Shown one piece after another: positions 25,495 to 37,814 of a stretch of 37,814 nucleotides of DNA (within the stretch, counting starts at the first letter, position 1; every line of letters begins with the position of its first letter). The DNA comes from Hyphomicrobiales bacterium (GTDB lineage: Bacteria; Pseudomonadota; Alphaproteobacteria; Rhizobiales; Xanthobacteraceae). The stretch covers positions 1 to 37,814 of the forward strand of contig JAFKKL010000014.1 of NCBI GenBank assembly GCA_017305595.1. The letters are read 5' to 3'. The position numbers and the translations under genes are program-made. Below the pieces are notes generated by a model. That model saw only the letters and a program-made list of their open reading frames with translations, searched no databases and had not been told where the DNA came from.

Positions 25495-25572
25495 GAATCC
25501 GGGGCTGAAAATCCCGCCGATAACCGCTTTTGCGGCATTGCAGGGCCGCCGCCGGTCGCGTATCTCCTGCCC

Positions 25573-27168
25573 ATGACAGCACACAGCCAGACGAGCCCGG
25601 CGGCCACGGATATCGCGGCCGCGCACGACAAGATTCTCATCATCGATTTCGGATCGCAGGTGACGCAACTGATCGCGCGGCGGGTGCGCGAGGAGGGCGT
25701 CTATTCCGAGATCGTGCCGTTCCAGAAAGCCGAAGCCGCTTTTCGCGAGATGAGGCCTAAAGGCGTCATCCTGTCCGGCGGTCCCGCCTCGGTGCTCGAC
25801 AAGGACGCGCCGACGGCCCCGCAGTCGGTGCTCACCGCCGGGGTGCCGGTGCTCGGCATCTGCTACGGCGAACAGACCATGGCGCAACAACTCGGCGGCA
25901 CCGTGGAAGGCGGACACCATCGCGAATACGGCCGCGCCGCCATCGAAGTCACCGACGACTGCGCGCTGTTCGAAGGCGTCTGGCAGAAGGGCGGCAAATA
26001 CGACGTCTGGATGAGCCACGGCGACCGCGTCACCAAACTGCCGGATGGTTTCCGCGCGGTGGCGAAGGCGGCCGGCTCGCCGATCTCGGTGATCGCCGAC
26101 GACGAGCGCAAATTCTACGCGATGCAGTTTCACCCCGAGGTAGTGCATACGCCGGACGGCGCCAAGTTGCTGCGCAACTTCGTGCGCAAGGTGGTCGGCC
26201 TGAAGGGCGACTGGACCATGCGCGCCTTCCGCGAGGAAGCCATCGAGAAAATCCGGGCGCAGGTTGGCAAAGGCAAGGTGATCTGCGGTCTGTCCGGCGG
26301 CGTCGATTCATCGGTCGCGGCGATCCTGATTCACGAAGCCATCGGCGATCAGCTCACCTGCGTGTTCGTCGATCACGGCATGCTGCGCAAGGACGAGGCG
26401 AAAAGCGTCGTCGACATGTTCAGGGATCACTACAACATTCCGCTGGTGCATGTGGATGCGTCGAAGCAGTTCCTCGGCGAGCTCGACGGCGTCACCGATC
26501 CGGAAGTGAAGCGCAAGACTATTGGCCGGCTGTTCATCGACGTGTTCGAAGCGGAAGCGAAGAAAATCGGCGGTGCCGATTTTCTCGCGCAAGGCACGCT
26601 CTATCCCGACGTGATCGAAAGCGTGTCGTTCACCGGCGGTCCGTCGGTGACGATCAAGTCGCACCACAACGTCGGCGGCCTTCCGGCGCGCATGAACATG
26701 AAACTGGTCGAACCGTTGCGCGAACTGTTCAAGGACGAGGTCCGCGCGCTCGGCCGCGAGCTCGGCCTGCCGGATATTTTCGTCGGCCGCCATCCGTTCC
26801 CGGGGCCGGGCCTTGCGATCCGCTGTCCCGGCGAGATCACGCGCGACAAGCTCGATATCCTGCGCGAGGCGGATGCAATCTACATCGACCAGATCCGCAA
26901 AGCGGGTCTCTACGACACCATCTGGCAGGCCTTCGCGGTGCTGTTGCCGGTGAAGACTGTGGGCGTGATGGGCGACGGCCGCACTTACGAGTACGTCGTC
27001 GGCCTGCGCGCGGTAACCTCGACCGACGGCATGACCGCGGACTTCTATCCGTTCGACATGAAGTTCCTCGGCGAAACCGCCACCCGCATCATCAACGAAG
27101 TGAAGGGCGTCAACCGCGTCGTTTACGACGTGACCAGCAAGCCGCCCGGCACGATCGAGTGGGAATAA
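25573..27168 (+). CDS. guaA: GMP synthase (glutamine-hydrolysing)
   Basis: This 531-residue amidotransferase converts XMP to GMP using ATP and glutamine. The class I glutaminase domain has nucleophile C97 in GICYGEQ and H187/E189 in QFHPEV. The ATP pyrophosphatase P-loop SGGVDSS is at 241-247, and the C-terminal dimerisation/XMP-binding domain ends in KPPGTIEWE, the usual end of GuaA. Length and order are complete, so the island insertion just behind it has not destroyed the gene. The extreme 3' end of guaA is a known integration target of genomic islands, and an integrase begins 318 bases after the stop. Confidence 0.97.
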
Positions 27169-27486
27169 TTTTTGCCCATCCGGGCGTATCCAAACTCACG
27201 CTGCAATACGACATAAGACAATGAAAATGCTGAAAAAATCTCTCTGAGACTTTCGGCATCTATCGCCGGGTTAGCCTCCCGTTTGACGGTATGGCTGGCG
27301 GTATGGCGCGTCTTGTCTCAACCGAAAAACGCATATACCGTCAGGGGCAAGAGAGCTTCTGACGGTATATTTTTTGGCATAAACACTTGTAAATGCTGAA
27401 TAAAAGCTATGTCAGGCGGCCCAGTTTTGGCCTGACGGTATAATTGGGTGCTCTCCTGCATTTTTTGACCGATCTGGAGGGTGCAG
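27169..27486. other. Island left boundary: AT-rich att region with TGACGGTAT repeats
   Basis: This 318-base non-coding stretch is visibly AT-richer than its flanks. TGACGGTAT occurs at 27284-27292, 27360-27368 and 27433-27441, in reverse at 27334-27342, and again inside the integrase gene at 27552-27560. ATATACCGTCAG (27333-27344) and CTGACGGTATAT (27359-27370) form a perfect 12-bp inverted repeat. AAATGCTGAA is repeated directly at 27225 and 27391. These look like integrase arm-type and accessory sites of an attL, with the core presumably in the last bases of guaA. No second copy of the guaA end is in the window. Confidence 0.6.
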
Positions 27487-28743
27487 ATGCTGACCGACAC
27501 CGCCATCAAGGCACTGAAACCAAAAGATAAATTATACAAGATTGTGGATCGTGACGGTATGTACGTCGTGGTCCAACCTTCGGGTTCAATCGTGTTCCGC
27601 TTGGACTACCGGCTCAACGGCCGTCGGGAAACCTTGACGTTGGGTCGTTATGGCCCGGCGGGTCTGTCTCTGGCCCGGGCGCGTGAGAAGCTGATTGATG
27701 CCAAGCGCGCGATTTCCGAGGGTCGCTCGCCGGCGCAGGAAAAGCAGCGCGAGAAGCGGAGGATCAAGGAAGCCAAGAGCTTCGGCCAGTTCGGTGAGCG
27801 CTGGCTTCAGGAAGCGAGGATGGCGGACAGTACACGCGCGATGCGGCGGTCGATCTTCGAGCGCGACATCCTCCCGGCGTTTCGCAATCGACTGCTAACC
27901 GAGATCCTGCCGGAGGATCTGCGCGGGTTGTGCGCGAAGGTAAAGGAACGCGGGGCGCCGGCAACAGCGGTCCATGTCAGAGACATTGTGAAGTTGGTTT
28001 TCGCCTTCGCCATCCTGCACGGGGAGAAGGTCGCCAACCCGGCCGACGAGGTTGGCCCATCGTCGATCGCGACCTTCGTGCCGAAGGACAGGTCGCTATC
28101 TCCCGCGGAGATCCGCATCATGCTCGGACAGCTTGAGCATGTCCCGACGCTGCCGACGATCCGTCTCGGGATAAAGCTGATTCTGCTCTCGATGGTGCGA
28201 AAGAGCGAATTGCAGGATGCAGTCTGGGAAGAGGTCGATTTTGAGAACGCCGTCTGGTCGATCCCCAAGGAGCGAATGAAGCGCTCGAAGGCTCACAACG
28301 TCTATCTATCGCAGCAAATGCTCGACATCTTCATCGCTCTCAAGACCTGCGCCGGTAACTCGAAATACGTCCTGCCGTCGCGCTACGACGCTGACGCGCC
28401 GATGTCGCGGGCCACGTTCAATCGGGTCACGATGGCGGTGGTGGTGCGGGCCAAGAAGGAAGGAATGCCGCTGGAGTCCTTTACGGTTCACGATCTCCGA
28501 CGCACCGGCTCGACTCTGCTGAACGAACTGGGCTTCAACAGCGACTGGATCGAGAAGTGCTTGGCGCACGAGGATGGCCGATCCTCACGGGGCATCTACA
28601 ACAAGGCGGAATATGAGCATCAGCGCCGGCACATGATCCAGGAATGGTCCAACATCGTGGACGCTTGGGTCGTGGGGGAGAAATACACGCCGACCCTTTA
28701 TCCGCCGACAATGGACCTGCTTACGCCCGAGCCGGATGTTTGA
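27487..28743 (+). CDS. Tyrosine integrase, P4-type (island integrase)
   Basis: A 418-residue site-specific recombinase that would insert and excise the island at guaA. The N-terminal DUF4102-like arm-binding domain starts LTDTAIKALKPKDKLYKIVDRDGMYVVV, followed by a core-binding domain (about 95-190) and the catalytic domain. The active residues read R238 (MVRKSEL), H335 and R338 (HDLRRTG), H361 (CLAHED) and nucleophile Y371 (GIYNKAEY). GGAGG at 27476-27480 supports ATG 27487. It points away from guaA, and its 3' end overlaps the AlpA gene on the other strand by 23 bases. Confidence 0.95.
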   Translation: MLTDTAIKALKPKDKLYKIVDRDGMYVVVQPSGSIVFRLDYRLNGRRETLTLGRYGPAGLSLARAREKLIDAKRAISEGRSPAQEKQREKRRIKEAKSFGQFGERWLQEARMADSTRAMRRSIFERDILPAFRNRLLTEILPEDLRGLCAKVKERGAPATAVHVRDIVKLVFAFAILHGEKVANPADEVGPSSIATFVPKDRSLSPAEIRIMLGQLEHVPTLPTIRLGIKLILLSMVRKSELQDAVWEEVDFENAVWSIPKERMKRSKAHNVYLSQQMLDIFIALKTCAGNSKYVLPSRYDADAPMSRATFNRVTMAVVVRAKKEGMPLESFTVHDLRRTGSTLLNELGFNSDWIEKCLAHEDGRSSRGIYNKAEYEHQRRHMIQEWSNIVDAWVVGEKYTPTLYPPTMDLLTPEPDV

Positions 28744-29005
28744 TGGGGCGGGTCTTGCGAAGCTGGACATCGGGCATGGGTGCGCGTTTCACGGTTTTCG
28801 CGCGCGAGGCGCGGCGGCGCTCCTCGAGCCAGGCTTCGACTTCGGCGAGGTCCCAGACCACGCAGCGAGACGTAAGATAGAAGCGCTGCGGAAATTCACC
28901 GCGCTGCTCCATGTCGTAGATGGTCGTGTCGGCCAACGGGACGATTTGCCGAAGCTCATGGCGCCGGATGGTCCGTGTCACGGCGGGAGGTTCGTGTGAT
29001 TTCAT
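28721..29005 (-). CDS. AlpA-family regulator / excisionase-like protein
   Basis: A 94-residue winged-helix protein. RTIRRHELRQIVPLADTTIYDMEQRG followed by FPQRFYLTSRCVVWDLAEVEAWLEERR is the standard AlpA/MerR-like layout, in which helix 2 contacts DNA. Such proteins activate or assist the integrase of P4-like islands and may act as recombination directionality factor. The basic C-terminal tail (ASRAKTVKRAP) may add DNA contacts. GGAG lies 7 bases before ATG 29005. The coding end overlaps the integrase end tail-to-tail. Confidence 0.85.
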   Translation of the reverse strand: MKSHEPPAVTRTIRRHELRQIVPLADTTIYDMEQRGEFPQRFYLTSRCVVWDLAEVEAWLEERRRASRAKTVKRAPMPDVQLRKTRPIKHPARA

Positions 29006-29161
29006 CAGAGGACTCCGTCAGCCATTGGGTTCAACGGATAGAAGTCGATAGACGACGTTGAAAGAAAGCTCGGATTGAGGGGCGTAGAACGGTATCGCGC
29101 TCTGGCGTGCATATCGGATAAGGCGCGGCCCTCGCCGCGCCCAGCCAGACCTCCAATCGGT

Positions 29162-29791
29162 TCATTTGGCTGATCGTCGATACCGGCCCTTCCGGCGTGA
29201 GCCGACGTAGCATATGAGACCAGCCACCTTGAGCGCGGCGATGTCCCGACGCGCGGTTTTCAGACTAACCGCCCACATTGCCACAATATCCCGTGCGTCA
29301 CTTCGACCTGCCGCGACTCGGTCGAGAAACCAGTGCTGCCGCTCGTTGAGTTCGGCCCGATCAGGGACATTTATAGGGTCGCGTTCAGGGACACGTTCAG
29401 GGACATTTTTCCGCGCGCCCGTTGCCGATCGTCCCCCTGCGGCTTCCCCGGCAGCATAGGCTTCGCGCGCTCTGACCAGGGAAATGCGATCCACTGGCCC
29501 GGTCAGCGGGATGGCTGCCGGCCCATCAATCAGGCCGAGAACGAAGGCCCTGATGACTGGGGACGAGACCACCAGCCGCAGGAAATAGACGCTGTCTGGC
29601 CCGTGCTGGCCTGAGAGCCAGTGCTTGACGGTTCGCTCGCTTGCGTCCGTCTGGCGCATGAGCTGCTTAATCGCGCGGCGACTGTCGCCATGCTCTTTGC
29701 GTAGCAGCTCAGCGATGGTCCGCGCATAGACTTCGCGTCCGCCAAGAACACCTGTCCATAGGGGTAATTTCCTGCCCGTTTTCGGCAACAT
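29162..29791 (-). CDS. Two-domain HTH protein of the island
   Basis: A 209-residue soluble protein with two probable DNA-binding segments. The first, around residues 38-75 (SRRAIKQLMRQTDASERTVKHWLSGQHGPD), looks like a phage-type HTH. The last 60 residues (HWFLDRVAAGRSDARDIVAMWAVSLKTARRDIAALKVAGLI) resemble a DeoR-like winged helix. Between them lies a charged linker with repeated VPER/VPDR units encoded by near-repeats of ttcagggaca. The role is probably regulatory; it is divergent from the serine recombinase gene. The start is uncertain: ATG 29791 has a GGAAG that lies too close. The 156 bases between this gene and the AlpA start hold no gene. Confidence 0.65.
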   Translation of the reverse strand: MLPKTGRKLPLWTGVLGGREVYARTIAELLRKEHGDSRRAIKQLMRQTDASERTVKHWLSGQHGPDSVYFLRLVVSSPVIRAFVLGLIDGPAAIPLTGPVDRISLVRAREAYAAGEAAGGRSATGARKNVPERVPERDPINVPDRAELNERQHWFLDRVAAGRSDARDIVAMWAVSLKTARRDIAALKVAGLICYVGSRRKGRYRRSAK

Positions 29792-29801
29792 CTTCCGTTT
29801 T

Positions 29802-29830
29802 CTCCGCAGCTAAACTGTTCCCGTGCGGAG
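29802..29830. promoter_or_regulatory. Inverted repeat between divergent regulator and recombinase genes
   Basis: CTCCGCA (29802-29808) and TGCGGAG (29824-29830) are perfect 7-bp inverted arms separated by 15 bases in the divergent spacer of the HTH gene and the serine recombinase gene. It could be an operator for the neighbouring HTH protein, or a leader hairpin. Short arms make this tentative. Confidence 0.35.
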
Positions 29831-29907
29831 TGACGGCAGAGGCCCGTCATGCGCTGCGGCGGTAGGTCGCCCGGACCGCCGCAGGCAAGTTCGTGAGGCG
29901 TAATGTG

Positions 29908-31476
29908 ATGAGCCGGAGAGACTACGATAATGATCGGTCAGAGCAGCCCGAACGTCCTCTTCGGGCTGCCGAATACGTCCGCATGTCGACGGATCATCAG
30001 AAGTATTCGACGGAAAACCAAGCCGACGCGATCAAGCACTATGCCGAGGCGCGCGGAATCGAGATCGTCTGTACCTACGCCGACGAAGGAAAGAGCGGGC
30101 TCAGCGTCGATGGTCGTGATGCGTTCAAGCGGCTGATCGCGGACATCGTGGAAGGCCGCGCCGACTTTGAGATGATCCTCGTCTACGACGTGAGCCGCTG
30201 GGGGCGCTTCCAGGACACCGACGAAAGCGCCTACTACGAATATATCTGCAAGCGCGCCGGCGTTCGTGTCCAATACTGCGCCGAGCAGTTCGAGAATGAC
30301 GGAAGCCCGATCGCGGCCATCATCAAGGGCGTGAAGAGCGCCATGGCCGGGGAATATAGCCGTGAGCTTTCCGTCAAGGTTTTCGCCGGCCAGGGGCGCC
30401 TGATCGAGAAAGGGTATCGTCAGGGAGGCCCGGCGGGTTTTGGACTACGGCGAACGCTCATCGATGAGCACGGCGCTATCAAGGGGTGTCTTGAACGCGG
30501 CGAGCAGAAGAGTCTCCAGACTGACCGCGTGATTCTGACACTCGGCCCGGCCGAGGAAGTCGATCTGGTTCGCGAAATCTACCGGGCGTTCGTCCATCAA
30601 GGGTATAGCGAGAGCGAGATCGCGGCCGATCTCAACAGGCGGGGTATTTCCACCGACCTTTGGCGACCCTGGACCAGGGGAACCGTCCACCAGATTCTCA
30701 TCAACGAGAAATATGTCGGCGACAACGTATGGAACCGCCGCTCTTTCAAGCTGAAGAAGAAGCGCGTCCGGAACGATCCCGGTATGTGGATCAGGGCGCA
30801 GGATGCGTTTGCGGCCGTCATCGAACGCGAACTGTTCGAGGCGGCCAGGACCATCATCGGTGCGCGCTCCTTCCGGCTGAGCGACGAAGAGATGCTGCAA
30901 TCTCTGAGGGCGCTTTATCAGCAAAAAGGTTTGCTCTCCGGCATCGTCATCGACGAATCCGATGGGATGCCGTCCAGCAGCGCCTACAGCTCCCGCTTTG
31001 GCAGCCTGCTTCGCGCCTACGGTCTCGTGGGCTTCACGCCGGATCGCGATTACCGCTACGTTGAAATCAACCGCGAACTGCGAAAGCTCCATCCCGGTAT
31101 TCTTCGTGAGGTGCTCGATGGATTGCGGGCAACGGGCAGCGATGCCTGGCAGGATCTCGAGGCCGACCGGATAGTCGTCAACGGTGAGTTCAGCGTCTCG
31201 TTGGTGATCGCGCGGTGCATCGAGACGCCGACCGGGCTCCTTCGGTGGAACCTGCACTTCGATACCTCGCTCGCGCCCGACATCACGATTGTCGCGCGGA
31301 TGGATAGAGCCAATCGCGCGCCGTTCGACTTCTATCTGTTCCCCCGCATTGACATGCTCTCCGAAAAGCTGCGGCTAGGAGAGGAGAATGCGCTCGCGCT
31401 CGATGCCTACCGCTTCGACGACCTTGAGCTTCTCTATGACATCGCCGCGCCTGTTCCTCTTGGGGAGGCCGCCTGA
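29908..31476 (+). CDS. Serine recombinase with atypical C terminus
   Basis: A 522-residue large serine recombinase. The N-terminal resolvase domain has R25, nucleophile S27 and the spaced YVRMSTDHQKYSTENQ motif, then VYDVSRWGRFQD. The recombinase domain follows from about 165 (GPAGFGLRR) to 315 (YRAFVHQGYSESEIAADLNRRGI, then the GTVHQILINEKYVGDNVWN motif). The usual zinc ribbon is missing: no paired cysteines appear after residue 300. Instead a segment around 345-390 (PSSSAYSSRFGSLLRAYGLVGF) resembles a homing-endonuclease-associated DNA-binding repeat. ATG 29908 is used (GAGG upstream); GTG 29893 would add five residues. The stop overlaps the next gene by one base, so it is cotranscribed with two ParB-like genes. 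Confidence 0.88.
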   Translation: MSRRDYDNDRSEQPERPLRAAEYVRMSTDHQKYSTENQADAIKHYAEARGIEIVCTYADEGKSGLSVDGRDAFKRLIADIVEGRADFEMILVYDVSRWGRFQDTDESAYYEYICKRAGVRVQYCAEQFENDGSPIAAIIKGVKSAMAGEYSRELSVKVFAGQGRLIEKGYRQGGPAGFGLRRTLIDEHGAIKGCLERGEQKSLQTDRVILTLGPAEEVDLVREIYRAFVHQGYSESEIAADLNRRGISTDLWRPWTRGTVHQILINEKYVGDNVWNRRSFKLKKKRVRNDPGMWIRAQDAFAAVIERELFEAARTIIGARSFRLSDEEMLQSLRALYQQKGLLSGIVIDESDGMPSSSAYSSRFGSLLRAYGLVGFTPDRDYRYVEINRELRKLHPGILREVLDGLRATGSDAWQDLEADRIVVNGEFSVSLVIARCIETPTGLLRWNLHFDTSLAPDITIVARMDRANRAPFDFYLFPRIDMLSEKLRLGEENALALDAYRFDDLELLYDIAAPVPLGEAA

Positions 31477-32381
31477 TGCCTGCTGTTCGACCGAACAAGA
31501 TCGAAATGATCCCTATCTCCCGGATCACGGTTCTGAACCCACGCGCGCGCAACAAGCGCCAGCATCGGGAGATCGTGAACAACATCGAAGCCATCGGCTT
31601 GAAGAGGCCGATCACGGTGAGCCGCCGCGATGGCGCAGGCGGGCCGAGATATGATCTCGTCTGTGGTGAGGGCCGGTTGGAAGCCTTCCAGATGCTTGGT
31701 CAGACCGAGATTCCGGCCGTGGTGATCGAGGCCAGCGAAAGCGAGTGCCTCGTCATGAGCCTGGTCGAGAATATCGCCCGGCGCACGCCGCGGCCCATCG
31801 ATCTCATGAAGGAGATCGGCGCGCTACGATCTCGCGGTTACAACGACGCTGCCATCGCGGAGAAGATCGGTGTCGGGGCATCCTGGGTGAACATGATCGC
31901 GTCGCTACTCGAGCGTGGCGAGGAACGGCTGGTGTCCGCCGTAGAGACCGGGCTCATTCCGATCACCTTGGCAATGGAGATTTCCAAAGCCGAAACGGAA
32001 GAGGCGCAGAACCTGCTCCTCGACGCTTACGAGACCGGCAAGCTTCGGGGCAAGAAACTCGCCGCGGTTCGACGTCTGCTGGAAATGCGGATGCGCAGCC
32101 AGCGCAAGGGTGGATTGCCTGTCGGGCGGTTGGGCCGAAAGGGCACCGGCGTCCGTCGGATGACGGCCGCCGATCTCATGCAGGTCTATCAGCGGGAGGC
32201 GGAAAAGCAGCGTCTGCTGGTCAAGAAGTCGGACTTCACGCAAACCCGGCTGCTGTTCGTCGTCGAGGCGCTGAAGGATCTGCTCGGCAATGACGGTTTC
32301 ATCAATCTGTTGAGGGCGGAGGGGCTGGCGACCATGCCACGCGCGCTCAAGGTCCGTGTGTCGGGAGACGATCATGACTGA
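31476..32381 (+). CDS. ParB/RepB-like protein 1
   Basis: A 301-residue protein with a ParB N-terminal nucleotide-binding domain: GEGRLEA (64-70, the canonical GERRxxA with G in place of the first Arg), ENIARR (98-103), and an HTH at about 124-142 (NDAAIAEKIGVGASWVNMI). The C-terminal half resembles the RepB plasmid partition C-terminal domain (TRLLFVVEALKDLLGNDGF...LLRAEGL). No ParA-type ATPase is nearby, so normal ParABS segregation is unlikely. TGATG couples its start to the recombinase stop, and its end overlaps the second ParB-like gene by 8 bases. It may bind or load on DNA to help recombination; that is inference. Confidence 0.82.
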   Translation: MPAVRPNKIEMIPISRITVLNPRARNKRQHREIVNNIEAIGLKRPITVSRRDGAGGPRYDLVCGEGRLEAFQMLGQTEIPAVVIEASESECLVMSLVENIARRTPRPIDLMKEIGALRSRGYNDAAIAEKIGVGASWVNMIASLLERGEERLVSAVETGLIPITLAMEISKAETEEAQNLLLDAYETGKLRGKKLAAVRRLLEMRMRSQRKGGLPVGRLGRKGTGVRRMTAADLMQVYQREAEKQRLLVKKSDFTQTRLLFVVEALKDLLGNDGFINLLRAEGLATMPRALKVRVSGDDHD

Positions 32382-33309
32382 AGAACCGAAGGATCGGGAT
32401 GACGGCCGTATCCATTTGGGCTTCGATCGCGATTTTCTGACGATCCCCGTTGCGGCGATCGTTCCGCTGAAGACGTTGCCGCCCGGCGCCAGGGAGAGCC
32501 GATCCTATTCGCAGGTGCTGAGTTCGATCAAAGCGATCGGCCTGATCGAAGCGCCCGTCGTCATGGCAGACGAAAAGAATGCCGGAACCTGGTTTCTCCT
32601 CGATGGTCATCTGCGGCTTGAGGCGCTGAAGGAACTCGGCATCTCCGAGGTCGAGTGCCTGCTTGCGGCTGACGACGACACCTACACCTACAACAAGCGC
32701 GTGAATCGCATACCGCCGATCCAGGAGCATCGGATGATCGTGCGGGCAATGGACCGGGGCGTGTCCTCGACCGACATCGCGGCAGCCTTGAACCTTCAGG
32801 TCGAGTCCGTGCTGCGGCGTTTCCGGCTCCTGGAAGGGATCAGCCCCGAGGCGGCCGAGATGCTGAAGGACACACCTTGCTCGATGAAGGTGTTCGACAT
32901 TCTGCGTCAGATGACGGCCGTGCGGCAGATCGAGGCCGCCGATCTGATGATCGGCCAGAACAATTTCACGGTCATGTTTGCCCGTGCGTTGCGCGCGGCG
33001 ACATCCGAAAACCAGCTTGCCGCCACCAAGAAGGGCAAAGGCGGCGGCAAGCCGACGCCCTCGGGCCAGCAGATCGCCCGCATGGAGCGCGAGCTGGCGG
33101 CGCTCCAGACCCAGGTGAAGTCGGTCGAGGAAACCTACGGCATCGACAATCTGCATTTGACCGTCGCGCGTGGATACGTCGCCAAGCTCCTTGCGAACAA
33201 TCGCGTGGTTCGCTGGCTGGCGACCCATCAACAGGACTATCTCAGCGAGTTTCAGAAGATCGCCGAGATCGACAGGCTCGGCCCGATCGCGGAAACGTCG
33301 GGCGCCTGA
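32374..33309 (+). CDS. ParB/RepB-like protein 2
   Basis: A 311-residue diverged partner of the preceding protein. LLDGHLRLEALKELG (76-90) corresponds to the GERRxxA box with DGHLRLEA, which retains one Arg. NKRVNRIPPIQEHRMI replaces the ENIQR segment, and an HTH appears at about 131-150 (SSTDIAAALNLQVESVLRRF). A short coiled coil near 235-260 (RMERELAALQTQVKSVEE) precedes a C-terminal helical domain. ATG 32374 is preferred because GGGAGA precedes it; GTG 32356 is possible. The 8-base overlap with the first ParB-like gene suggests that the two products form a hetero-oligomer. Confidence 0.78.
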   Translation: MTEEPKDRDDGRIHLGFDRDFLTIPVAAIVPLKTLPPGARESRSYSQVLSSIKAIGLIEAPVVMADEKNAGTWFLLDGHLRLEALKELGISEVECLLAADDDTYTYNKRVNRIPPIQEHRMIVRAMDRGVSSTDIAAALNLQVESVLRRFRLLEGISPEAAEMLKDTPCSMKVFDILRQMTAVRQIEAADLMIGQNNFTVMFARALRAATSENQLAATKKGKGGGKPTPSGQQIARMERELAALQTQVKSVEETYGIDNLHLTVARGYVAKLLANNRVVRWLATHQQDYLSEFQKIAEIDRLGPIAETSGA

Positions 33310-33486
33310 GTCAGATATGGGGACCCGGACCCGATAAGCGCGGGGACCATGGGAGAAGCCGCACCGTGGGGCGGATCAAGCATGGTGGTGGGAATGGCGG
33401 CGAACCCGCATGAAGCCCACTAGGCTGGTCCACATATAGCCAGCCGCATGAGGGGTAGCTTGTTGCCCCGCATGAACAGGACGGGT

Positions 33487-33509
33487 GTGCCGGACGCGCC
33501 GGCCGGCAC
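33487..33509. terminator. Hairpin between convergent ParB2 and helicase genes, possible terminator
   Basis: GTGCCGG (33487-33493) and CCGGCAC (33503-33509) form a perfect 7-bp stem with a 9-base loop, 6 bases beyond the helicase stop on the minus strand. No U-run follows on either side, so intrinsic termination is uncertain. A second imperfect stem, ATGAGGGG/CCCCGCAT, lies just upstream near 33446-33471. The 205-base gap between the two genes otherwise shows nothing. Confidence 0.4.
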
Positions 33510-33514
33510 GCCCG

Positions 33515-36500
33515 CTATTCATCGCGGTGTTTCTGTCGTGAGAATGCCGAAAGATCGAGGGTCAATGCTTTCAGCGACCGCGTCGTTTCCACGTCGTGAT
33601 GGGTCAGGAGATCGACAAGATCCTCCTGGTCCGGCTGCCCCAAAGCGAGGCGATAGAGCAGCCTCTGCGTCCTCAACTTTGCGAATCGATCAATATCGCG
33701 ACTTTGGGGGAGCGCGAACAAATGTCGCTTCAGTTCCGCACCTTCCATCGCCCACCAGGGGCTGAGGCCGGTTTTGTCGTCCGCGAACGCCTTGTCGGCG
33801 TCGCGTGCGATGATGTCCCACGGCGACGATGCTTGGCCGCGTGCCTGCGCCAACGCTTGTTCGCCTAGTTTTCGGGCGAGCGGTTGTCGGACAGTCAGTC
33901 CGCCGAAGCGCTGGACGCGACCTTCGCGTTGCTCCAGGTCAACCGGGCTGGAACAAAGATCCCAGTGGCCCAGCCGGTCGCACCAGCTATGGAAGTCGAG
34001 ACCTTCCTGTCCGACAGAGGTCGTTGCCAGGACATGGGGCCAGAACGGCGTATTGAACGCGCTGCGGATTTCCTCAGAGCGCGCCGGTGGCGGTTCATTG
34101 ACATCATGATCCTGCCGATGAGTCTCTGTCTCGGTGCCTCCAAACGGCACCGCAGCGTGACAGCGGATACGGATCTTGTCCTTTTTCTTCGCGCCCTTGA
34201 ACCCGAAAGTGCCGACGTTCGCTGCAAGCGCCGCCGACAGATCCTCGATCAGTCCATCAGGATTGACCTTGGATTTGCGCAGCCAGAAATGTTCGTCGAG
34301 GACGGCTTCCAGGCAGCCATCAACGCACGCATTCTGATATTTCTGCGTGGCGTCCTCGCCGGGCAAGATCGACCAGAAAACGGGGCGATCCAGATAGGTG
34401 CGCAGCCGCGTCCAGCAGAAGCGCACAAGGCGCGCGAAATGCTGCTCCTGGTAATCGAAAAGCTCAGGAAGGTGGCGATAGAGTGCTCGGCCCGTCACGA
34501 CGCCAGGGGCGCCGAGAGCCATATCCACCAGAGCGTCCAGCTCCCACCGGCTTAGCCAGGTGATCGCCTCGGCCTCTTGGCGCTGCTTGAGCAAGGTTTG
34601 AAGTGTTGCATCGTTCGGGGCGACCCGACCCCAGTTCTTCTGGACCGCCGCGAACTCCCGAGCCAGCGGCGCCTTTTGCGCGCGCTCAATGGCCGCGAGG
34701 ATCGCCCACGCCGGTTTGCGTCGTCGGTTGCTTCGCGCATTCGGAGCCTCCGGCGCGATGGACGGGGGCAGCGCCTGAATAATCTGCTGCCGCGCCCTGG
34801 CCCTGATCTGCTTGATCGCAGCCTTGCCCTTCACATCTAGGGGATCGACAGCGCGGATCAGGAAAGGGCTCGGGTGAAACAGGGCGAGCGTCGGGCCTTG
34901 GTTCGGCTTCGGGTTCAGGTGGCGTTTCTTCCACGCGGCAGCGTAGGGAAGATTGCTTTTCGCCACGCATTTGCGCTCGACCTCAAGGCTGACAAGGGCT
35001 GCCAGGCTTTGCGGTGTGGCCCTGAATCGGCTGAAGATCAGCATCTTGGGCGATTGCGTCACCTTTGCCCATGGGCCGGAAGGCGTCCACCAAGTCAGCG
35101 ACGGCAACACCCACGGCAGGGCAAGGGCCTCCGTTGGCACAAGGCCGTTGAGGGCACGGAGCTTGGCGCTTCCCCAACCCTCTTTGGGCGGCTTGAAGCA
35201 ATTGGTGACTCCGAGCCGGGGGACGCTGCGCGTGGCCGGAAAATCTATGTCGCGAGAAATCTGGTATCGGTCCCCCAACGCTTGCGCAGGGAGTGGCACT
35301 GACAGCCAGTAGGCGATCGCGCTGCCTGCGAGCTTGGGCGACACATGGTCGGTGAAATGGCGATAGACGTCGAGATCGTGGGGCTCGATCCTTACGGACG
35401 GCGGCGCAGGCTCTCCGGCATGGTCGGAAACCGGACGCTCGGTCCGCGACATGAGCGGTGTGAGAAGCGCCTCAAGATGGTGCTTGAGCGCTTGCGCCTC
35501 TTCGATCGCCGCCGTGCGGCCATCGGGAGGCAGGTGGCCGATCAAATGCAACAGATCGCCAAAACGACGAAATTGGGATTCGGCCTCGGCGCGTACAGCC
35601 GGCCCGCCCAGAAACTCGATAATCTCGAAAAATTCGACATGGGGGGCAGCCCCAGCGCCGCTTTCCCAGCGCTCGGCATAGAAACGGTAGGGCGTGGCGG
35701 ACAGGAGGAGGATCGGCGGCGGCGTCCCGCCATCTGTTCCCGCCAGCAGTTGCCGCGCCAGGGGATTATCGGCGCCTGCATTGAGCAGTTCGCGATAGCA
35801 TTGGAACTCGTCGAAAATTACGAGATCGGGCGGGGCGGAATCCAGAGCGGCTTGAGCGAGCGCCTTCCGCATCCGGCCCAAGCTCTGACCATGTTTGCTG
35901 GCCACGATCGCGTGCAGAATGTTTTCGCGGGCCGGCTTGCCAAATTCCGCGCGTAACGCTCGGCCATAGGCCGCCTTGAAAAGGGCGGAGACATTGTCGA
36001 ACTTGCCCTGAGCTTCCTCGCACGCCCATGGCCAGCCGGACGTTGCGCCATATTCGATATAGCCTTCAGGAAAGGCTGCGGTCAGGCCGGGGTATAGTTC
36101 GTCCAACAGGAGCTTGACGAACGCGCGCTCGACAGCCTTGCCGCCGTAGAGGCGCTGCGAGCTGGAGAATGATGTGGTGGGTGTAAAGGCGTAGAGCCGC
36201 AGCTTTCCCTTGCGCTTTTCCTCGAACGGAATGAGACCGACGCGGTCGATGATGGAGAGTGCGTCCTTGGCATCGTCCTTCTCGAGGAAGCGCAGCAGTT
36301 CGACCTTATTCTGGTCCGCGACTTTGAGCCCGCTCGTAATATAATAGACCGTGAACTTGCGCGCTTTGCTCGCCAGTGCCGCAAGCGTATCTCGGGCGAC
36401 GACGGTCTTCCCGAGGCCGACTTCGTCCGCGACAAGGAATCGGCGCAGTGCGTTGCCTCCCGACAGAGCGGCAGTTGCAGCCTTTACCGTTGCGGCCTGG

Positions 36501-36523
36501 AAGGGTTTCGATCTTGCGCTCAT
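33515..36523 (-). CDS. SF2 helicase with DEFQ motif II, candidate defence helicase
   Basis: A 1002-residue SNF2/SF2-like ATPase. FQAATV at 8-13 and Walker A ADEVGLGKT (32-40) lie almost at the N terminus. Motif II is DEFQ (238-241), motif III LSATPYR (274-280), a motif IV-like KMLIFSRF is at 493-500, motif V is VGQEGLDFH (837-845), and motif VI QREGRVQR is at 865-872. About 300 residues are inserted between motifs IV and V, which is unusual. ATG 36523 overlaps the stop of the upstream PLD gene by four bases (ATGA), giving probable translational coupling. This pairing and the island setting suggest DNA translocation coupled to nuclease attack on foreign DNA; no substrate is known. The family resembles DISARM-type helicases in style, but no DrmA/DrmB or methylase is present. 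Confidence 0.85.
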   Translation of the reverse strand: MSARSKPFQAATVKAATAALSGGNALRRFLVADEVGLGKTVVARDTLAALASKARKFTVYYITSGLKVADQNKVELLRFLEKDDAKDALSIIDRVGLIPFEEKRKGKLRLYAFTPTTSFSSSQRLYGGKAVERAFVKLLLDELYPGLTAAFPEGYIEYGATSGWPWACEEAQGKFDNVSALFKAAYGRALRAEFGKPARENILHAIVASKHGQSLGRMRKALAQAALDSAPPDLVIFDEFQCYRELLNAGADNPLARQLLAGTDGGTPPPILLLSATPYRFYAERWESGAGAAPHVEFFEIIEFLGGPAVRAEAESQFRRFGDLLHLIGHLPPDGRTAAIEEAQALKHHLEALLTPLMSRTERPVSDHAGEPAPPSVRIEPHDLDVYRHFTDHVSPKLAGSAIAYWLSVPLPAQALGDRYQISRDIDFPATRSVPRLGVTNCFKPPKEGWGSAKLRALNGLVPTEALALPWVLPSLTWWTPSGPWAKVTQSPKMLIFSRFRATPQSLAALVSLEVERKCVAKSNLPYAAAWKKRHLNPKPNQGPTLALFHPSPFLIRAVDPLDVKGKAAIKQIRARARQQIIQALPPSIAPEAPNARSNRRRKPAWAILAAIERAQKAPLAREFAAVQKNWGRVAPNDATLQTLLKQRQEAEAITWLSRWELDALVDMALGAPGVVTGRALYRHLPELFDYQEQHFARLVRFCWTRLRTYLDRPVFWSILPGEDATQKYQNACVDGCLEAVLDEHFWLRKSKVNPDGLIEDLSAALAANVGTFGFKGAKKKDKIRIRCHAAVPFGGTETETHRQDHDVNEPPPARSEEIRSAFNTPFWPHVLATTSVGQEGLDFHSWCDRLGHWDLCSSPVDLEQREGRVQRFGGLTVRQPLARKLGEQALAQARGQASSPWDIIARDADKAFADDKTGLSPWWAMEGAELKRHLFALPQSRDIDRFAKLRTQRLLYRLALGQPDQEDLVDLLTHHDVETTRSLKALTLDLSAFSRQKHRDE

Positions 36524-37814
36524 GAGACAAGCCGGGAGCGCGCGATGGCCCAGATCTGAGCGAGTTCGTTCAAGTCAGCTCGCTCCGCTTCGCTCAGATT
36601 TTCGCCGTGGGCGAGCAGCGCATCCACATAGGGCGCAAAATGGCGATCGACCCGGCCGAAGGCTTTGCGATCGCGTGCCCAAGCCGTGAGAATATCCTCC
36701 AATGTAAGGCGGTCATAACCCAGGCCTTGGGGACGGTTGCCCCGCGATCCGACATCTTCATCCCATGCACCGCCACCGACCGGAAGCGTGTCGCCGCCAA
36801 GCATCGCCCGCATCCAGTCATGGAATGCGCGGAGCCCCATGTGGCTGGCCAGGGCGGCTAGATCCCGCTGCGCTTCGAGAGGCGGATCGACGGTGACGCG
36901 CTGCATCCATCGCAAATTGCCGTCTGGGCCGCTTATCCGCACCTGAATGAAGGCAGACTGAAGTGACAAGGGGATCGACCCAAGATTGAGGCGGGCGGCA
37001 TCGGGCAGCCAAGGCAGCAGGTCGCCATTTGCAGATCCGGCGTGCAGCACATGGTCCGGGTAGGCAAGCGAAGGAACCGCCTGCGCATCGATCGAGAAGC
37101 ATTCTCCGTCGCGGCGCAGAAGCGGGTTCCAGGAGGCCATGAGCGCCTTGCGTGACTCTTCCAGAGCATCGGCCGTACTTGTGCTGCGCATATCTGTGGC
37201 GGCGAGTTCCTCTATGGTGACGGGCGTGGCCTTACCGACGAGGAACGCCAGGCCGGAAGCGAACGCCTCGCCCGCTTCGAGTTCGACCATGATTTCCGAG
37301 TTGCGTCCCGACCATGCCCTTTCGGTCGCATTGGCGCTCCCGACCCTCAAGATGGTCTTTTCACCCGAGTGGAAGCAGAAGATTTTCGCATGGAGAGCAA
37401 GGGGCGCCGGCTCCACATCATCTTCGGCCACAGGTTCGGTGCCGGGCAGAGCGAGCGTGGACTCGTCAGCGAGCACGTCCGGCGCCGCATAGGCCAGGAT
37501 CTTCGAGAAACCGGTCAGCGAGGTCCTGGACCGGCCGGCCATATCGGCAAGAGCCGGCATCGACGAAATCAGCGTTCTGGATCCCGCAGCCCCCCAGTTG
37601 CCTGCCTTTTTCAGGAAGTCGGGCGACAGGAATGGGCTGATGATCGTTATGCCATCGACCGCCCGGGATGGCGGCTCCGCTGGCAAGGGAACACCTTCAT
37701 CCAGCCCATTGAGGAGGCCGCGTAGGCGAAAACCGTCTGGCGCATCCCACCAGATCGCCTCCAGTTGCTTCGCGATGTCATCGGCATCCTCGCGCGATGC
37801 GCAGCGTGCGAGAG
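36520..37814 (-). CDS. Phospholipase-D-like protein (5' partial, runs off right edge)
   Basis: The frame is open to the right edge of the window (through 37812), so at least 430 residues are encoded and the start lies outside. The visible N-terminal part reads DIAKQLEAIWWDAPDGFRL. ITIISPFLSPDFLKKAGNWG and LHAKIFCFH...LRVGSANATERAW are the SPFLS and HxK/GSANxT motifs of PLD-like nucleases; the Asp of a canonical HKD is not seen after the Lys. A second motif may lie beyond the edge. The C-terminal region (about residues 180-430 of the fragment) is helical and unassigned. The gene is followed by the helicase with an ATGA overlap. A stand-alone TTG start at 37686 is not needed, because the frame continues upstream. 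Confidence 0.78.
   Translation of the reverse strand, partial: LARCASREDADDIAKQLEAIWWDAPDGFRLRGLLNGLDEGVPLPAEPPSRAVDGITIISPFLSPDFLKKAGNWGAAGSRTLISSMPALADMAGRSRTSLTGFSKILAYAAPDVLADESTLALPGTEPVAEDDVEPAPLALHAKIFCFHSGEKTILRVGSANATERAWSGRNSEIMVELEAGEAFASGLAFLVGKATPVTIEELAATDMRSTSTADALEESRKALMASWNPLLRRDGECFSIDAQAVPSLAYPDHVLHAGSANGDLLPWLPDAARLNLGSIPLSLQSAFIQVRISGPDGNLRWMQRVTVDPPLEAQRDLAALASHMGLRAFHDWMRAMLGGDTLPVGGGAWDEDVGSRGNRPQGLGYDRLTLEDILTAWARDRKAFGRVDRHFAPYVDALLAHGENLSEAERADLNELAQIWAIARSRLVS

Follow-up and report, generated by a model that had tools for sequence, protein, structure and literature searches.

The stretch of DNA analyzed here (the window) is an entire contig of 37,814 bases (C239; GenBank JAFKKL010000014.1) from a Hyphomicrobiales bacterium, and its right edge is the end of the contig. 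The source assembly (GCA_017305595.1) is a draft in 392 contigs and is 94% complete. Against the right edge lie two overlapping genes on the minus strand, one for a superfamily 2 (SF2) helicase and one for a phospholipase D (PLD)-like protein, which almost certainly belong to the anti-phage system Azaca. The helicase open reading frame starts with ATG and encodes 1002 amino acids. The PLD-like frame (430 codons) is open at its 5' end at the window edge, and the TTG start listed at 37686 is mechanical; the gene has 601 codons in relatives, of which the window shows those from codon 172 on. The pair is convergent to plus-strand genes for a serine recombinase and two ParB/RepB-like proteins, the last base of which is 33309. 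A preliminary description of this DNA had coupled a PLD-like protein to an SF2 helicase, and both frames, their overlap and the convergent arrangement were borne out. The features at the contig end are as follows.

33515..36523, minus strand: zacC, SF2 helicase-like ATPase, 1002 amino acids, complete (PADLOC ZacC, E = 7.3e-266)
36520..37812, minus strand: 3' part of zacB, codons 172-601, PLD-like (PADLOC ZacB, E = 5.2e-61)
36520..36523, minus strand: ATGA, the 4-base overlap of the zacB stop and zacC start (read from the sequence)
37813..37814, no strand: contig end, past which zacB codons 1-171 and zacA (DUF6361) are expected (gene order in relatives)

The helicase matches the PADLOC ZacC profile almost from end to end (883.6 bits; residues 2-995 on profile positions 10-1018 of 1019), and its next-best PADLOC matches are weak (PDC-M27C, 63.6 bits; DrmD, 35.7 bits). 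The readable part of the PLD-like protein (residues 172-601) matches ZacB at 205.2 bits over profile positions 184-580 of 586, the N-terminal third being unreadable in the window, and ZacB is its only PADLOC match at E values up to 0.1; Pfam PLDc_2 also matches this part, at 1.1e-4, which does not reach the cut-off of that model. PADLOC thus names the pair as ZacB and ZacC of Azaca, which upholds the earlier suggestion of a defense module and rules out a distinct, undescribed system, Azaca having already been published. Millman et al. are said to have tested Azaca against phages in 2022. In the literature, ZacC is the Azaca helicase (PMC12278908, PMC10925250) and is filed under SF2_SNF2 (PMC10925250), Azaca is listed with a PLD-like domain in a table citing Millman et al. 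2022 (PMC10952713), and a 2026 review table places Azaca among systems of unknown mechanism, a coarse entry in which Hachiman also appears (PMC12926258). The assignment of ZacA and ZacB as the remaining proteins of the Azaca trio follows from the PADLOC naming and the gene order. A literature search for DUF6361 gave no paper.

The remainder of the operon can be read in relatives. ZacC occurs at 92 to 99% identity (best segment) in eleven loci of other genomes, one of which (L035) covers 551 residues only, and the DNA of these loci runs on past the point where the window ends, with a zacB of 601 codons in most of them and zacA before zacB. At the near-identical locus L026, ZacA (E = 3.4e-89), DUF6361 (5.6e-13) and a full-length ZacB (9.5e-115) were all identified. 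The order zacA-zacB-zacC on one strand was found in 42/42 loci counted, representing 17 ZacC clusters (clustering threshold, 60% identity) and including a Bacteroidota plasmid and an archaeal plasmid. These comprise 11 element loci, 9 genome stretches, 21 plasmid stretches and 1 phage record, several with split frames or without ends, and at most 41 are distinct, since L092 and L110 (both 1003851 long, with equal scores) are very likely one plasmid region. The hidden Markov models (HMMs) for the Zac proteins were built from four of the 42 loci, which therefore score by construction. PADLOC was applied to ZacA, ZacB and ZacC of L026 and L078 only; DUF6361, PLD and helicase are annotated in many of the plasmid records. 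The plasmid records opened were 22 of the 48 that match ZacC, including L111 (Agrobacterium tumefaciens), which was excluded before counting as it holds a 347-amino-acid helicase fragment with zacA and zacB not annotated nearby. Four incomplete ZacC places (two in G131, one in G096 and the second in G614) were also left out. The zacB gene is in two frames in a Brevundimonas sp. SSC2 metagenome-assembled genome (MAG) with ambiguous bases (L034, 5890-7954) and in Agrobacterium fabrum pTiL-11 (L107, 8112-9968), while zacA and zacC stay open in both. The supposed two-gene module is thus a system of three genes, and a further partner past the right edge, as had been anticipated, is supported by zacA preceding zacB in relatives. 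The pair seemed partnerless because the contig stops at 37814, inside zacB.

To the left of the pair lies more of the element that carries it, integrated at the 3' end of guaA, with the following features.

25573..27168, plus strand: guaA (GMP synthase), host gene of the integration site (Pfam GATase 1.8e-43, GMP_synt_C 1.9e-43)
27140..27168, no strand: likely left attachment region at the guaA 3' end, where between-host identity rises (20-base identity profile, seven relatives)
27481..28743, plus strand: tyrosine integrase (Pfam Phage_integrase 2.4e-21, Arm-DNA-bind_3 3.3e-20)
29162..29791, minus strand: small protein with a weak helix-turn-helix (Pfam HTH_29 4.2e-4, below cut-off)
29893..31476, plus strand: large serine recombinase (Pfam Resolvase 1.2e-23, Recombinase 7.5e-22)
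31476..32381, plus strand: ParB/RepB-like protein 1 (Pfam RepB 1.3e-25, ParB_N 7.8e-12)
32356..33309, plus strand: ParB/RepB-like protein 2 (Pfam RepB 7.4e-46)

The insertion of an island at guaA, as first proposed, was supported by comparison with relatives. The comparison covered seven relatives, and in all of them identity with the window climbs near position 27140, within the last 29 bases of guaA; from there on, four relatives are mostly identical at 18 to 20 of 20 bases (range 15 to 20), and in three Caulobacterales copies identity drops again after about 27200. The guaA genes of relatives are 68 to 75% identical to the window at 25501-26500 and 76 to 85% at 26501-27000 (500-base segments). 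From 27501 on, aligned segments are 92 to 99% identical in Aureimonas, Nitrospirillum, Rhizobium subbaraonis and Asaia (one short piece is 100% identical), the Asaia copy being without 28001-29500. Nitrospirillum belongs to the Rhodospirillales, Asaia to the Acetobacterales, and Aureimonas and Rhizobium to the Hyphomicrobiales. A second lineage, in Phenylobacterium (Caulobacterales), Brevundimonas and a Caulobacterales MAG, is about 80 to 92% identical across Azaca. The copies in Brevundimonas and the Caulobacterales MAG have no recombinase-ParB module separating the integrase from zacC, so the module does not belong to Azaca. The small protein at 29162..29791 is found in several relatives and is part of the element.

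The right end of the element was not reached: the Nitrospirillum and Brevundimonas elements are homologous to each other, in pieces, as far as about 59 kb and 52 kb from guaA, respectively, and a search of seven extended loci for the guaA-end pattern in one orientation returned only the copy at guaA. A second contig of the same assembly (C270, 30,973 bases) aligns in two pieces, at about 97% identity, with its counterpart in the Nitrospirillum element. Its genes include those for a type IV secretion system coupling protein, a T2SSE-type ATPase, a transglycosylase, an RPA replication initiator and a ParB-like protein, and the matching Nitrospirillum DNA encodes a protein in which relaxase and DUF3363 domains occur together. 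The carrier fits an integrative and conjugative element (ICE), and guaA is a known ICE site in Mesorhizobium (PMC8627217). Because no right attachment site was located and C270 is linked to the window by inference, we call it conjugative-type. Very probably, the two genes are a complete zacC and a partial zacB (its 3' part) belonging to an Azaca operon zacA-zacB-zacC, carried as cargo by a guaA-integrated conjugative-type element. The window copy agrees with complete zacABC loci in its near full-length ZacC, its ZacB 3' part, its strand and its overlap, and differs in that zacA and 171 zacB codons lie past the contig end or are absent and in being carried on such an element.

Some further features of the element were seen. 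In the region from 27140 to 37814 carrying Azaca, the aligned 500-base segments share 92 to 99% DNA identity between the window and L025, L026, L032 and L033, whose hosts span three orders, whereas identity is about 70 to 74% over most of guaA. The serine recombinase and the two ParB/RepB-like genes (29893-33309) come in addition to the tyrosine integrase of the element, and their presence varies between copies. Genes with a transposase-type integrase core interrupt the element in two copies: one splits the serine recombinase of Rhizobium subbaraonis (L033, 13522-14379), and another lies upstream of a shortened helicase gene in Aureimonas (L025, 1879-2748).

ZacC is sparsely distributed. Strong matches (E up to 1e-40) were found in 7/385 genomes of the class and 5/398 of the phylum, the window's own genome being in both sets. 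Among 61 relative genomes, 17 had a ZacC match at E up to 0.001, strong only in the window's genome (G000) and G019; the best E values of the other 15 (1e-14 to 6e-4) are as expected of other helicases. On plasmids, 48/72,556 records match ZacC at 1e-20, and in 33 of these the match extends over 80% or more of the query; a single one of 50,697 phage records, an unverified scaffold, also has a match. Four scans of viral contigs (ZacC twice as single proteins, and alignments of ZacC and ZacA) found no relative. Homologues standing always alone in core chromosomes would have spoken against defense, according to the preliminary description; the matches on plasmids and on an integrated element are of another kind. 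This patchy, mobile distribution fits a defense cargo.

Conserved residues suggest how the three proteins might act. Window ZacC carries the motifs ADEVGLGKT (32), DEFQ (238-241), SATP (275), GQEGLDFH (838) and EQREGR (864), and GKT, DEFQ, SATP, GQEGLDFH and EQREGR are invariant in 11 diverse ZacC homologues (25 to 68% identical to the first; one is annotated from GKT on). The second PLD motif of ZacB (LHAK / GSANAT / NSE) is inside the window and the first (HPK / SRNLT) lies past the contig end. Across 12 diverse ZacB proteins, two of which are N-terminally short as annotated, L311, H312, K314, G329, S330, N332, T334, N342 and E344 are invariant, as are N136 and T138, and H111, P112 and K113 are nearly so. 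PLD enzymes that have a single combined active site typically carry two half-sites in the same chain. In 12 ZacA proteins, F51, P52, S55, Y63, G114, Y130, W131 and Y275 are invariant, residues with no known function. In the model that we favor, ZacC would be an ATP-driven DNA translocase that engages invading DNA together with ZacA, which might serve as recognizer, adaptor or bridge, and ZacB would be the nuclease that cuts this DNA, its two PLD half-sites possibly forming one catalytic center per chain. Helicase-guided DNA cleavage by ZacB, with the division of labor proposed here, has in our estimation about an even chance of being right; any particular role for ZacA is doubtful.

Azaca might instead belong to a larger machine. 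In relatives, the element bears Hma as well (HmaA at 1583 bits in Nitrospirillum; HmaB at 1071 and HmaC at 906 bits in Brevundimonas), a system described as HmaABC in PMC8565338. Hma thus shares the kind of element with Azaca in relatives, but it is an operon of its own, which in Nitrospirillum lies some 10 kb upstream of zacA, and is not in the window. Between Hma and zacA lies an operon for a PD-(D/E)XK protein (885 amino acids), a UvrD protein (1131 amino acids) and an SF2 helicase (1113 amino acids), with a WYL-domain gene on its far side. From size and domains, we take the first two proteins to be AddB-like and AddA-like. The SF2 helicase of about 1113 amino acids is included in some copies of the operon. 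In 7/7 plasmid records that hold this third gene at 80% or more, its coordinates place it one gene, or about 3.4 kb, downstream of the AddB-like gene, and none of the seven has a ZacC match. The family, at 57 to 92% identity to the Nitrospirillum copy, stands beside the distant Azaca loci L078, L104, L110, L100, L097 and L105, and also beside BREX (L129, L133), Shango SngA/SngB/SngC (L130), a multiubiquitin/ThiF cluster (L131) and a type III-like cluster (L132). AddB-like/AddA-like operons were placed as follows.

L129, 10001-19403: AddB-like/AddA-like operon
L130, 10001-19400: AddB-like/AddA-like operon
L131, 10001-16050: AddB-like/AddA-like operon
L132, 9998-16026: AddB-like/AddA-like operon
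L133, 10001-19407: AddB-like/AddA-like operon
L078, 788-6840: AddB-like/AddA-like operon
L097, 11609-19901: AddB-like/AddA-like operon

Hma genes (L066, 156-6219; L067, 5025-9434) stand close to the AddAB-like operon and are separated from it by a WYL-domain gene; in L129 and L133, a WYL-domain gene takes the equivalent position between that operon and BREX.

A single machine made up of Azaca and the AddB-like/AddA-like/SF2 helicase operon that precedes zacA in relatives is, on balance, unlikely. The AddAB family adjoins Azaca in 5/17 ZacC clusters and in three geometries (upstream on the same strand, divergent in L100 and convergent in L097), and zacC lies within about 15 kb in 11/25 plasmid records whose AddB-like match is at least 58%, a count that sets aside 35 records with weaker AddB-like matches. 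However, 14 of these 25 records have no ZacC match, and in the five of them that were opened the operon adjoins BREX (two), Shango (one), a multiubiquitin/ThiF cluster (one) and a type III-like cluster (one). Furthermore, 12/17 Azaca clusters are without the AddAB family within the stretch read, as are some members of the other five (Aureimonas, L073, L074, L094, L095, L098 and L102), and the upstream 6.7 kb of relatives found no match in the window's own assembly (control, 5/5 relatives). An obligate partnership was rejected on the strength of the 14 records without ZacC. The Methylocystis locus L076, an HMM seed, was likewise rejected as a member of the same family (AddA is only 28.6% identical over 542 residues) and is not among the five AddAB-bearing clusters. 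The link of AddAB to Azaca could be ordinary island clustering. We also considered that a portable AddB-like/AddA-like(/SF2 helicase) operon may swap partner systems in alphaproteobacterial defense islands, with Azaca as one client whose ZacB-cut ends would be degraded by the AddAB-like engine, although we would not expect this to prove correct. If it did, several "separate" defense systems would share one DNA-destroying back end.

Returning to a complete Azaca operon borne on the element, with ZacB as its nuclease, several points weigh against this reading. ZacA has no match in the window's own assembly (positive controls in 6/6 genomes), and neither have the next 6.7 kb of L026; this copy may therefore lack part of the operon instead of being just truncated where the contig stops. 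C270 is a contig apart from the window, and we infer that they belong to one element. PLD proteins need not be nucleases. AlphaFold2 models of ZacA and ZacB, from alignments of only 9 and 10 close homologues, respectively, were unusable (mean pLDDT [predicted local distance difference test] of 34.5 and 31.0), and sequence search of solved structures turned up no close relative: the ZacB profile matched 7clg chain A alone at E up to 0.1 (46 residues, E = 0.014); the ZacC profile matched only two Dicer-related helicase chains at E up to 0.001, the better at 2.9e-4 over about 48 residues around motif I; and the two ZacA matches at E up to 1 were chance-like. The two unmatched searches, along with the split zacB frames of L034 and L107, would suit a degraded remnant that has truly lost zacA and the start of zacB and no longer defends. 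We nevertheless regard this as unlikely, as the draft is fragmented and incomplete, the contig just stops with frames open and motifs intact, and the zacB frame is whole in 10/11 close relatives, the exception being L034, where the sequence contains ambiguous bases and the break may be an assembly error.

A DISARM-like system or fragment, in which a PLD protein accompanies a SNF2-class helicase (a composition given in part in PMC12458937), is the weakest alternative and hardly credible: the C-terminal motifs of the helicase have a weak local likeness to DrmD (43.8 bits with NCBIfam, 35.7 with PADLOC), but the curated DrmD model NF038317 has a cut-off of 610 bits, against the 883.6 bits of the ZacC profile, and the ZacB part does not qualify as the DrmC PLD protein. 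NF038318 was missed as well (22.0 bits against a cut-off of 950), and DISARM was rejected on these curated cut-offs, in agreement with the preliminary description. None of the six window proteins scanned with PADLOC, rightwards from 27481, fully matches a DISARM protein, including DrmB (DUF1998), DrmA and the methylase; the two ParB-like proteins reach MTase_II at 16 to 17 bits. Mokosh, too, combines a PLD-like domain with a helicase, and the PLD-like domain is listed for Mokosh I and Mokosh II alongside Azaca (PMC10952713), but the PADLOC tables of the two window proteins name no Mokosh family. The anti-phage PLD-helicase protein NF042964 similarly joins a PLD-like domain to a helicase, but is matched at 23.5 bits against a cut-off of 1100.

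Naming the pair as Azaca removes a candidate "new system," its apparent novelty being traced to the end of a contig. Since the review table counts Azaca among the systems of unknown mechanism, the predictions made from the ZacB and ZacC motifs deserve a test, and the common helicase-nuclease operon points to a testable link among Azaca, Hma, BREX and Shango. The window and its relatives show clearly that Azaca has recently spread across orders of Alphaproteobacteria on one kind of integrated element, and such an element would deliver Azaca defense to every new host.

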